NCBI GenBank assembly: GCA_007751475.1
Contig: CP036434.1
Coordinates: 6,143,524-6,207,523, forward strand
Length of the DNA stretch: 64,000 bases
Direction of reading: 5' to 3'
Origin: Saltatorellus ferox
Lineage (GTDB): Bacteria; Planctomycetota; UBA1135; GCA-002686595
Shown here: positions 41,215-44,566 of the stretch, piece after piece
How the letters are laid out: every line of letters begins with the position of its first letter
How positions within the stretch are numbered: the stretch's first letter is position 1
Position numbers and translations under genes: made by a program
Notes under the pieces: generated by a model
What the model saw: only the letters and a program-made list of their open reading frames with translations
What the model was told of the DNA's origin: nothing
Database searches by the model: none

Positions 41215-41393
41215 GAGCCGGGATCCGGAGCTCCACAGCCGGGAGCGACTTCATCCTCACTTCCGGGCTCTTGATCCAACGACTCGACCAAGGCGAGCGG
41301 TCACGTCCCTGTCAACGCGCTCGAAGCCATCGGGGGTTTGGCGCAATGCCGCGGGCGCGGATGCGCCAATGACAAGGTCACCAGGTCGACTAG

Positions 41394-41605
41394 CCCGCAA
41401 AATTCACGAGGTTGTGCCACCAGTGCGTTCAAACCGCGTTGTGGCAAGGAAGATTCGCGCACGGCGCGGAAGCGGGCCCGTAGGCCCGCTGAGCACGCTG
41501 TGAGCGAACCCGCGAAGCGGGCGAAGGCTGTAGGCCTTCGTCTGACGCAGCCACGGCGTGGTTTGGGCGTGCTGGTGGTGCAACCTCGTGAATTTTGGGG
41601 GCGGG
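41394..41605 (+). ncRNA. Putative large structured RNA or REP/BIME-like element
   Basis: Arms 41399-41445 and 41550-41596 pair over 47 consecutive positions with no mismatch on the plus strand: 38 Watson-Crick pairs and 9 G-U wobbles. After a 4-G bulge five more pairs form (41394-41398 with 41601-41605). Inside the 104-nt loop are five short hairpins: 41454-41470, 41471-41490 (8-bp stem, loop CGTA), 41496-41506, 41509-41521 (CCCGC-GAA-GCGGG) and 41522-41540 (7-bp stem, loop TGTAG). Tandem wobbles at 41415-41416 and 41424-41425 are of the stable UG/GU type. Two GTAG tetranucleotides (41480, 41530) recall REP elements served by RAYT transposases, and such a gene lies at 43871-44566. It occupies the gap between convergent genes; no reading frame explains it. 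Confidence 0.55.
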
Positions 41606-41651: not shown

Positions 41652-43400
41652 CTACTGAAAGTCGACCTGGATCGCGCTCGTGAAGTTCGAGGTCGCTTGC
41701 CCCATCACCGAGTCCCGGTGCCAGGCCTGGAAGTAGTAGGTCATGCCTGGCTGGAGAACCACCGTCCCGGCGGAGGAGGGGACCCCGCGGAGTTCTAGCT
41801 GCAGCGATACCGTGCCGCTGGCGTTGGTGAACTGCACCTGCAAGGGCCCGACGTAGCGGCCAATCAGGGGACTCGCTATGCAGAGGTTGCCCTGGGCGTT
41901 GCCCGGGTTCGAGACGAAGCCCGCCGTCGGCGACGCGAGGAAGAGACAGACCGAGTTCACCGGGAGCTGGCTCGCGCGGAGCGTGAGGTTGTTCGCGGCG
42001 ACCTCTGCGGAACCAGCGGCATGGAGTTCGCCGACCTGCCCCGTCGAGTTGGCGAACACCTGCACGCACTGGGTCGCGGAGGGATCCGATGACGGGATCA
42101 CTTTGGCGATTTGCGCAGCGTCGGTGAACCCGTTTCCCACCCGGAGGCTCGCGCCCGCCCACACGTTGCCACGGGAGTCGATCGCAGGCGCCGTCATGCC
42201 GCCGAGCTGCCCCAGAAGCGTGCCGAGCTGAACCAGGTCGCGCTGGTTGCCCGCGGCGTCCAGGTACTCGATCGACGGATCGTATCCGCCGCCGCTCGCG
42301 ATGTTCACCCGCGCGGCCAGAACGACGCCGTCGTCGCCATCGGCGGCGATTCCGGCGTAGTCCCGAATGGGTGCGGGCGCAGCGCGGTCCCAGACGACGT
42401 TTCCGCTTCGGTCGAACCTCGTCACGCTGCCGTTCAGGGGAAAGGGCGCCATGTACACCACGTCGCCCGTCGTCGTGTAGGCGGACGCGCCGGAATTTGC
42501 GATTCCAACCAGCGGCGCGGACCATGCCAGCTGGCCCTGTGGGTCCAGTTCGATCGCCCCGTCTACCTGCTGAGCGAAAAAGAAGCGGCCATCGTCGCTG
42601 ACCGACGCGGCACCGAGGGGCCTCTCGAAGGACTGCAACCCCGCGGCCGAGTAGACGACCTGGCCAGCGCTATCGATGCGCTCCGCCGTCAGAAATCCCC
42701 CGCCGTAGTACGCCATGTAGGCATCGCCTCCGCCGAAGGCGGCGGTCATGGGCATCAGGGAAGGCGCCTCGTGAGTCCAGAGAATGCTGCCCGTCGAGCC
42801 GTCGATCTTGCGCATCGACGCACGTCCCGTGAAGACCGGGAGAGTGAGACTGTCCATCACCGTCGCGACGTAGATGTCGCCGTTCGGAGCTGGCCCGTGC
42901 TCGGCCCGCACGACGGGCGCGAAGGGGACGGTCGAAGGGATCTCCACATCCCAGTTGAGGCTTCCCTGCTCATCGAAGGAGAGCATGCGAAACTCCTCGC
43001 CGATCGACACCAGCACGACGGCATCGCGCGCCGTCGTGACGATGACATCCTGCACGGAGAGGTAGCCCGTGAACGTGGGCGCGATCGGGTAGGTACGGCT
43101 CCAGTCCGGAAAACCATCTTCCGTCCAGCGACGAAGCAGAAGCGCGTCGGACCCTCCGCTGGTCGGGGAGCTGATCCCGAAGGCGGCCACGCAGCCGCCG
43201 CTGGCGACCGGTGCACTGGAGCCCAGGGATTCATAGGTCGCGATCCCGCCGAACTGGACGGTCTGGAAGACAGCCTCGTCGATGGGCTGGATCCAACCGA
43301 GTTCGTACTGGGCTCGCGCGCTGGTCGGGAGGGCCGCGATCGGTGCCAGCAAGAGAGCGAGTCGACCGAGTCCGGGAAGGGGGTTCTTGTCTTGAAACAT
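41652..43400 (-). CDS. Exported PQQ-like beta-propeller protein with shared C-terminal module
   Basis: A 582-residue secreted protein. The signal peptide ends near residue 30 at TSARAQ. Residues of about 50-440 contain blade-like repeats of the PQQ/BamB kind (FDEQGSLNWDVEIP, IDGSTGSILWTHEAP, LDPQGQLAWSAPLV, FDRSGNVVWDRAAP), so a beta-propeller is likely. The last 130 residues are the module shared with the proteins at 37038 and 45067: LPVNSVCLFLAS, NPGNAQGNLC, IGRYVGP, YYFQAWHRD and SNFTSA. Propeller plus C-terminal sorting-type module indicates a surface or extracellular protein; ligand unknown. Confidence 0.8.
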   Translation of the reverse strand: MFQDKNPLPGLGRLALLLAPIAALPTSARAQYELGWIQPIDEAVFQTVQFGGIATYESLGSSAPVASGGCVAAFGISSPTSGGSDALLLRRWTEDGFPDWSRTYPIAPTFTGYLSVQDVIVTTARDAVVLVSIGEEFRMLSFDEQGSLNWDVEIPSTVPFAPVVRAEHGPAPNGDIYVATVMDSLTLPVFTGRASMRKIDGSTGSILWTHEAPSLMPMTAAFGGGDAYMAYYGGGFLTAERIDSAGQVVYSAAGLQSFERPLGAASVSDDGRFFFAQQVDGAIELDPQGQLAWSAPLVGIANSGASAYTTTGDVVYMAPFPLNGSVTRFDRSGNVVWDRAAPAPIRDYAGIAADGDDGVVLAARVNIASGGGYDPSIEYLDAAGNQRDLVQLGTLLGQLGGMTAPAIDSRGNVWAGASLRVGNGFTDAAQIAKVIPSSDPSATQCVQVFANSTGQVGELHAAGSAEVAANNLTLRASQLPVNSVCLFLASPTAGFVSNPGNAQGNLCIASPLIGRYVGPLQVQFTNASGTVSLQLELRGVPSSAGTVVLQPGMTYYFQAWHRDSVMGQATSNFTSAIQVDFQ

Positions 43401-43870: not shown

Positions 43871-44566
43871 CTACGCCTGGAGACGCCCGGTGACACGCGG
43901 GAGGTCGTGGATCGTGAGCAGTCCCTTGGCGCCACCCTTCGTCCAGCCCGTCCGCAGGAGCCAACTCTGCGCCTCCACGCTCACGCAATCGACCTTGTCC
44001 ACACTCTGACGCTCCGCAAAACCGCCAAAGGACATCGCGCTCGAACAAGGATCCAGAATCCCCAACCCGAGCCCGTGGTGCACATCATTTCTCAGCACGT
44101 ACTTCAAAACGTTCCGCATCTGCGTCGGCGACGTGATCACCTCCAGATGAAATCGCTCTGCAAAAACGCTCCCTTGCCTCACCCGACCCCAAAGCCGATT
44201 CAAACGCATCCCCAGCCCGGTATTCAAACTCGCCATCCCCTTCGAAAGGTCACCTGAGTTCTCCGCCTCCACGATCAGGTGCACGTGATTGCTCATCACC
44301 GAGAACTCCACGATCCGAACCAGCCCACCTCGATTCACCCGCGCAATCGCCGCCCTCACCACCGCCATCTCCTCATCCATCCGAAGACACCGAAACCCCT
44401 TCTTCAGCTTGATGGTGACATGGGCCACACCGCCCTTCATCTCCTCCCGGCTCCCGTGGGCTACCCGAGAATCCTTGGTCCTCCTCGGCCCACGCCGCTT
44501 CTTCGGCACCGCAAAACCAAACACCGCCTGCAAAACAACCGACCTCCCCATACGCGCTTTCGCCAT
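43871..44566 (-). CDS. RAYT-type Y1 (HUH) transposase
   Basis: A 231-residue protein of the IS200-like/REP-associated tyrosine transposase group. The metal-binding HUH motif is His94-Val-His96 in MSNHVHLIVE, after the family stretch VRIVEFSV. SLNTGLGMRLNRLWGRVRQGSVFAERFH and LKYVLRNDVHHGLG follow in the expected order, with Tyr156 the likely nucleophile. RAYTs are usually single-copy, non-self-mobile enzymes that act on REP/BIME palindromes. Codon use looks less GC-biased than in neighbours, and the region upstream is comparatively AT-rich, suggesting acquired DNA. No IS ends were found. The structured element at 41394-41605 is a candidate substrate. Confidence 0.87.
   Translation of the reverse strand: MAKARMGRSVVLQAVFGFAVPKKRRGPRRTKDSRVAHGSREEMKGGVAHVTIKLKKGFRCLRMDEEMAVVRAAIARVNRGGLVRIVEFSVMSNHVHLIVEAENSGDLSKGMASLNTGLGMRLNRLWGRVRQGSVFAERFHLEVITSPTQMRNVLKYVLRNDVHHGLGLGILDPCSSAMSFGGFAERQSVDKVDCVSVEAQSWLLRTGWTKGGAKGLLTIHDLPRVTGRLQA

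Follow-up and report, generated by a model that had tools for sequence, protein, structure and literature searches.

A dispersed, MITE-like hairpin repeat of Planctomycetota whose fold appears to be selected on one strand

The window, i.e., the whole 64,000-nt stretch of the Saltatorellus ferox genome (G000; a single contig of 7.72 Mb) analysed here, carries at positions 41390..41605 (+) one copy of a dispersed, transposon-like repeat, and the pairing of its arms across copies and relatives supports selection on the fold of one particular strand. On balance, and with some reserve, we favour the view that this element is an old MITE (non-autonomous DNA transposon) mobilised by an IS1380-family transposase, that its plus-strand fold is selected, and that it acts as a plus-strand RNA, perhaps together with a host factor.

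The window element and its fold

On the plus strand, positions 41398-41445 pair with 41550-41597 in 48 contiguous pairs, 39 of them Watson-Crick and nine G-U, with no A-C apposition, transversion or gap. The initial annotation, made from the letters of the sequence, had described a mismatch-free 47-bp stem in which all nine departures from Watson-Crick pairing were G-U on the plus strand; our pair count confirms the contiguity and the one-way departures and lengthens the stem by one pair. Its estimate that such an outcome would arise by chance about once in 512 presumes nine independent wobbles and is weakened because several of the nine are shared within the repeat family. The plus strand reaches a minimum free energy of −157.3 kcal/mol; shuffled sequences average −91.4, and none of 200 folds as well (z −14.8). 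The minus strand, at −124.0 kcal/mol, is weaker by ~33 kcal/mol.

The homologous unit (216 bp) starts at CTAG and is slightly longer than the element first annotated. It extends from the left-hand target-site copy CTAG (41390..41393) to a decayed right-hand YTAG (CGGG), as judged from the flanks of 25 copies, and scores 218.5 bits with a covariance model that was built with this copy included. The window copy has diverged to ~83% identity with the common form of its type (type 1, below). Bases 41394..41410 (+) constitute a terminal inverted repeat (TIR) like that of IS1380-family insertion sequences (IS) of the same genome, 13 of the 17 bases matching the IS left end when compared by eye. By fold and pair count, the long stem has its 5′ arm at 41394..41445 (+) and its 3′ arm at 41550..41601 (+; contiguous pairing 41550-41597).

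Inside these arms, the fold shared by 22 aligned copies has a core arm, interrupted by internal loops and capped by an apical hairpin, and beside it two small hairpins; the five inner hairpins proposed initially were only partly right. The core covariance model (id R2, not to be confused with the R2 element below) matches 41436..41526 (+; E 3.5e-7). Within the copy, the 5′ core motif GCAAGGAAG lies at 41444..41452 (+), the apical hairpin GCGGAAGCGGGCC..GGCCCGCTGAGCACG with a purine-rich internal loop at 41466..41497 (+), and the 3′ core motif CTGACGCAGCC at 41542..41552 (+). Small hairpins at 41509..41522 (+; CCCGCGAAGCGGGC) and 41521..41542 (+) are present in type 1 and absent from type 2; the latter shows a compensatory change among copies, read from columns 137-153 of alignment A2. 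A fragment of the R2 element adjoins upstream (41323..41362, +; 87.5% identity over 40 nt).

A dispersed family with IS1380-type ends

DNA and covariance-model searches found 25 full-length copies of ~216 bp (type 1) in the window genome, of which six are identical along all 216 bp; shorter and more diverged matches were also found. The initial annotation had suggested a covariance-model search of the genome and its relatives, which yielded both copies and covariation; it had overlooked that the element is one of 25 full-length dispersed copies with IS1380-type ends and a 4-bp YTAG duplication. The model used here (id R1) was built from 22 oriented copies, 20 from the window genome and two from G006. 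These near-palindromic copies score with R1 on their opposite strand too (up to 98 bits), so an R1 match alone is no proof of orientation. Type-1 elements carry no transposase gene, and the GC content of the own-genome copies examined is 0.63-0.70. Short forms, with outer arms and little or no interior, occur at G000:2967593-2967696, 7584187-7584290 and 3707334-3707432, and G025 has short forms with end pairs ~68-114 bp apart. Since these lack most of the interior, the core is dispensable for some insertions.

The common type-1 form reads CTAG followed by CCTGCATTATTCACGAG ... CTCGTGAATAATGCAGG and a second CTAG. The same 4-mer stands on both sides of 16 of the 25 copies (14 CTAG, two TTAG), and because TTAG is non-palindromic, its pairs read as a direct duplication. 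Three IS1380-family transposons (PF13701) in the same genome have 467-aa open frames, ends CCCGGATTATTCACGAA and CCTGGACTATTCACGAG, and CTAG on both sides in three of three cases. Their left end matches the CCCG form of type 1 at 15 of 17 bases; past these terminal 17 bp, the subterminal sequence looks unrelated by eye. The IS are thus like type 1 in their terminal 17 bp and YTAG sites and unlike it in carrying a transposase gene. In another genus (G084), two IS1380 copies each have one end equal to CTAG followed by CCCGGATAATTCACGAG. A broken IS1380-family gene in G020 (L214) lies between CTAG sites with a different end, CCCTGGAGTAAGCGC.., and CTAG targeting seems wider than type-1 ends. Type 1 is best read as a MITE, being short, devoid of a transposase gene and present in multiple near-identical copies with IS-like TIRs and a target-site duplication. 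From the shared ends, the duplications and the identical copies we infer that a DDE transposase moves it. Given IS1380-type ends and a 4-bp YTAG duplication, long complementary arms alone are no surprise.

Other hairpin repeats accompany type 1. Two of them, the R2 element (167 bp; ends GAGTCTGCGCC; 16 full copies used) and R3 (168 bp; ends TGCCCTGAATC; end pairs give 25 full copies, of which 23 were aligned), adjoin many type-1 copies. Type 2, with ends CAGCCCGTTGAAAAAG, is abundant in G020 (at least 102 end matches with up to three mismatches) and in G025, G084 and G026 (70, 54 and 13, respectively). By eye, the ends of R2, R3 and type 2 resemble neither type 1 nor each other. Limited searches found no autonomous partner for these three; for type 2, they covered PF13701 in ten carriers (six loci inspected) and PF01609 in six carriers (four further loci inspected) and gave no partner, for G020 among the end matches listed. 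In R2 and R3 elements, the GCAAGG / ACGC loop and the spacing agree with type 1; the apical motif does not, which makes their kinship weaker. Group B (G028, G021, G065, G067) resembles type 1 in its ends and apical motif and has no AAG loop.

These repeats form arrays. In G000, 35 of 66 full elements have their YTAG in common with a neighbour, be it another element, a partial one or the IS; CTAG itself occurs ~252 times per Mb (101 in 400 kb). R3 forms tandem pairs around one shared CTAG at G000:1530305-1530636, 4799535-4799866 and 7446121-7446452. At 1020331, 2624202, 6815450 and 7315340, type 1 comes after a full R2 element and both fold strands point the same way; it stands beside a partial R2 at 1993308, 6888491 and 7583975, and is arranged otherwise at 578318 and 1163754.

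The shared core and its strand bias

The 91-nt core, GCAAGGAA..GCGGARGCGG..CCGYYGAGCA..GACGCMGC, was modelled from 19 core sequences, none from the window genome or its genus. Invariant bases cluster in and around the internal loops (GC(A/T)AG-GA, GCG-GA-GCGG, CCG-GAGCA and GACG-GC, in which not every base is invariant). Both partners have changed in 13 of 22 core pairs and in 32 of 82 across the full fold; none of 500 shuffles attains any covariation measure, a significance inflated by related rows. The core is found with unrelated ends. In 20 of 27 elements anchored by the core motifs, the paired arms extend to 52-57 nt from the 5′ motif, counting YTAG; 16 of the 27 sequences had been trimmed at the element ends, and seven of the 11 untrimmed ones also fall within 52-57 nt.

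Core model matches occurred in 16 of 392 genomes drawn from the phylum, the own genome included (E ≤0.001 per genome; provided that the rough E-values are correct, fewer than one of the 392 genomes should be a false match). Ten of these 16 belong to other orders, their best matches scoring 38-51 bits. Fourteen of 15 inspected stretches are long hairpins around the core, L284 being interrupted by a contig end; YTAG stands at one or both hairpin ends in ten stretches (by eye) and is absent in L273, L278, L280 and L281. The full-length model matched 16 of 101 relatives, again including the own genome; among the genomes compared, G025 belongs to the same family as the window genome, and G091 and G085 to the same order. 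One exact pattern run against 84,980 species genomes gave 13 stretches (Planctomycetota MAG ARS90, eight; HKST-UBA81, two; MAG-21, one; other MAGs, two), and the same pattern gave none in viral contigs. In these searches, of which those with covariance models were confined to Planctomycetota, the core was met only in planctomycetes.

Covariation would arise in inverted-repeat DNA as well; what singles out one strand is the strand bias. The plus strand folds better in 22 of 22 aligned copies with RNA and DNA parameters alike, and in 43 of 44 matches in relatives, where the model had picked the strand (two of them, L087 and L103, coincide with L032 and L035 of the 22-copy set); the exception is L155, which folds better on the other strand. 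All 15 stretches inspected in the phylum-wide search fold better on the given strand, flanks included. Because fold programs favour G-U by construction and a model may choose the G-U-rich strand, arms were aligned with G-T and A-C scored alike. In this alignment, 15 cluster representatives of 67 copies have 84 G-T vs 10 A-C pairs (13 G-T-rich, one A-C-rich, one tied), and all 67 copies have 264 vs 37 (55 G-T-rich, three A-C-rich). A looser version, which ran past the stem and was replaced by this stricter one, had given 424 vs 227 (50 G-T-rich, 10 A-C-rich, seven tied).

When the core motifs were required to set the strand, they could be placed in 27 of the 37 elements chosen, in every case on the given strand and never on the opposite one; these 27 show 94 G-T vs 11 A-C pairs (20 G-T-rich, none A-C-rich, seven tied). 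The 37 comprise 33 hand-chosen representatives, six of them without anchored arms, and four group-B additions (L088, L095, L098, L099), none of which was anchored. When all 67 copies were treated in this way, the motifs anchored 39 copies on the given strand and no copy on the opposite one, and 28 remained unanchored. Of the 27 elements, the eleven from the phylum-wide search, three of them from the same family, gave 29 vs 8 (six G-T-rich, none A-C-rich, five tied). Several elements share ancestry, and all these counts overstate independence. Type 2 has little G-T excess (cluster mean 1.4 vs 0.5), and its representative is the single A-C-rich cluster (0 vs 1).

Pairing is not one-way in every copy: at least one A-C pair is present in the stem of eight of the 22 aligned copies, and private one-sided changes of Watson-Crick pairs among near-identical copies amount to 23 G-T, 14 A-C and 14 transversions. 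The strictly one-way pattern noted initially returns as a strand bias in homologues, with A-C pairs among copies and recent changes. As these recent changes are far less biased than 94:11, the bias seems to sit in the propagating lineages; individual copies apparently drift, and those from which new copies arise apparently keep the fold. The excesses of 84:10 and 94:11 reject plain decay of a DNA inverted repeat as the whole story. Selection on the plus-strand fold, as the initial annotation had it, is supported for one strand by the 94:11 ratio and covariation, a bias that cannot separate RNA from folded single-stranded DNA.

Readings of the fold and comparison with known systems

According to the explanation we favour, the window element would be an old, partly decayed, 216-bp MITE-like transposon whose insertion into YTAG sites, with 4 bp duplicated, probably depended on an IS1380-family DDE transposase acting in trans. 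Its arms of ~52 bp would enclose a core domain whose internal loops are conserved, and selection among propagating copies would keep the whole plus strand foldable, as the G-T/A-C asymmetry and covariation suggest. The most likely working form is a plus-strand RNA transcribed from or through the element. This RNA might, speculatively, bind a host factor common to planctomycetes that helps the element persist or spread, a guess prompted by the occurrence of the core with unrelated ends and, so far as searched, only in planctomycetes. Counted against this explanation are the fork-opposed fold strand (below), the weak G-T excess of type 2, L155, the short forms and the lack of a partner found for R2, R3 and type 2. 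As a more tentative extension, which we consider possible, several unrelated end sets throughout Planctomycetota could carry one RNA core ~50-57 nt inside both ends, its fold being selected in each propagation round; an RNA step in the life cycle would then make this a new class of mobile structured RNA.

The functional fold could instead be that of the plus strand as single-stranded DNA, a substrate for some nuclease, recombinase or transposase, in the manner of IS200/IS605, REPIN/RAYT or integron attC systems, a reading we regard as unlikely. DNA energy parameters favour the plus strand as well (22 of 22), the sharing of YTAG by 35 of 66 elements despite ~252 CTAG per Mb is reminiscent of cassette arrays, and a Y1_Tnp (IS200-like) transposase gene lies 2.3 kb from the window element (43871-44566, −), without relatives in a tblastn search of the genome contigs. 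IS200/IS605 elements are not known to make a target duplication, and their fold strand is tied to the lagging-strand template. Here, 4-bp direct duplications include the non-palindromic TTAG and the ends are common with a DDE transposon, which points to duplex DNA transposition for type 1. The fold strand is also not enriched on the lagging-strand template: it runs with the fork in 22-23 of 66 elements in G000 and against it in 43-44 (p ~0.01-0.02, uncorrected, with arrays that are not independent; GC skew places the origin near the contig start and the terminus near 3.9-4.4 Mb). Lagging-strand single-strand transposition is therefore not favoured, and type 1 is of neither the IS200/IS605 nor the REPIN type. 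We prefer, with moderate confidence, a predicted RNA serving the element over single-stranded DNA.

Less probable still is a host-level function in cis, in which the hairpin would act within mRNAs (RNase III processing, stabilisation or termination, cf. Correia/NEMIS and ERIC) and copies would be retained by the host. Copies do lie close to genes, several of them within 20 bases of a coding-like frame, and Correia TIRs are described as cleaved by RNase III in the accessible parts of the reports cited below. However, among 24 copies the upstream gene is on the same strand in 14 cases and on the opposite strand in 10, and the downstream gene in 11 and 10, respectively (no called gene in three); this lack of a clear orientation bias suggests that the fold probably serves the element rather than the adjacent gene. 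Individual copies also drift, with A-C as well as G-T changes.

Bacterial MITEs are usually viewed as passive DNA whose transcripts happen to fold, and an ordinary MITE with plain long inverted repeats, its G-T excess due to shared ancestry or mutation bias, would agree with the plainly transposon-like family, the wobbles shared within families, the lean of recent changes to G-T (23:14) and the looser alignment (424:227); it is already disfavoured and very improbable, as G-T pairs also prevail in unlike stems from other genera and families whose strand is set by sequence (29:8 in the 11 phylum-wide elements), and a strand mutation bias should cancel because elements lie in both orientations on both replichores.

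If the preferred RNA reading is true, a selfish RNA that is widespread in one phylum has escaped notice, and finding the host partner of its core becomes an obvious aim. A fold of one strand is apparently under selection in the copies that spread, and the core with its invariant loops outlives the ends that move it. The count of G-T vs A-C, with the strand set by an independent motif, offers a simple general test for RNA-level selection in repeats.

The initial statement that the element matches no known RNA class holds at Rfam thresholds: no family passed for the window and 13 loci of copies or relatives, the sole pass being RNase P elsewhere on L096. Long hairpins attract sub-threshold miRNA-type matches, e.g., MIR7125 on the third element type beside L009; membership in a known RNA class was rejected. 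A literature search, with most subscription journals outside its coverage, found no published description of the repeat family.

By its mobility, the family fits the small-MITE kind, and it departs from that kind in having a core common to several families of one phylum, different ends and a strand bias. Among described repeats, bcr1-bcr18 of the Bacillus cereus group are, in the accessible parts of the sources, dispersed mobile repeats of 100-400 bp, of which bcr1-3 are MITE-like and bcr10 and bcr18 have conserved secondary structure, with many copies in transcripts (PMC6542083, PMC3446304). In size, dispersal, mobility and MITE-like or structured nature they resemble the planctomycete element; they differ in phylum and in their TTTAT motif, and those parts of the two papers describe neither a shared core on unrelated ends nor a one-way G-U excess. 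Membership in the bcr repeats, known only from the Bacillus cereus group, was rejected on the YTAG sites and planctomycete hosts. Correia/NEMIS, ERIC, RUP, BOX and other small MITEs are presented, in what is accessible of the reports, as ~100-200 bp long with TIRs and target duplication, often with TA at the termini, their transcripts folding as long stem-loops and Correia elements being cleaved by RNase III at the TIRs (PMC2229807, PMC10969869, PMC3049150). As characterised there, such MITEs are typically AT-rich, whereas the planctomycete copies are GC-rich, span several families of one phylum and have an internal-loop core and a strand-specific stem. REP/BIME/REPIN sequences with RAYT (Y1), reported in Planctomycetes too, are likewise palindromic and form arrays of units (PMC3733652, accessible part). 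By that account, REPs measure 20-40 bp and are tagged by GTAG/CGTC, in contrast to ~160-220 bp, YTAG duplications and IS1380-type ends here.

HEARO/omega RNAs are structured RNAs belonging to mobile elements. The planctomycete repeat is like them in this respect and unlike them in that no protein gene is common to the neighbourhoods of its copies (within 1.5 kb, 24 copies) and that no Rfam family matches at threshold. Recurrent neighbours are a 260-aa gene in a segmental duplication (L004/L006/L007) and one pair (L013/L019), and C-terminal protein stretches are common to neighbours of L001, L008, L014, L022 and L023. In the window, positions 41652-43400 (−) encode a protein with a PQQ_2-type match, whose C-terminal part, possibly a sorting domain, recurs beside L008, L014, L022 and L023.
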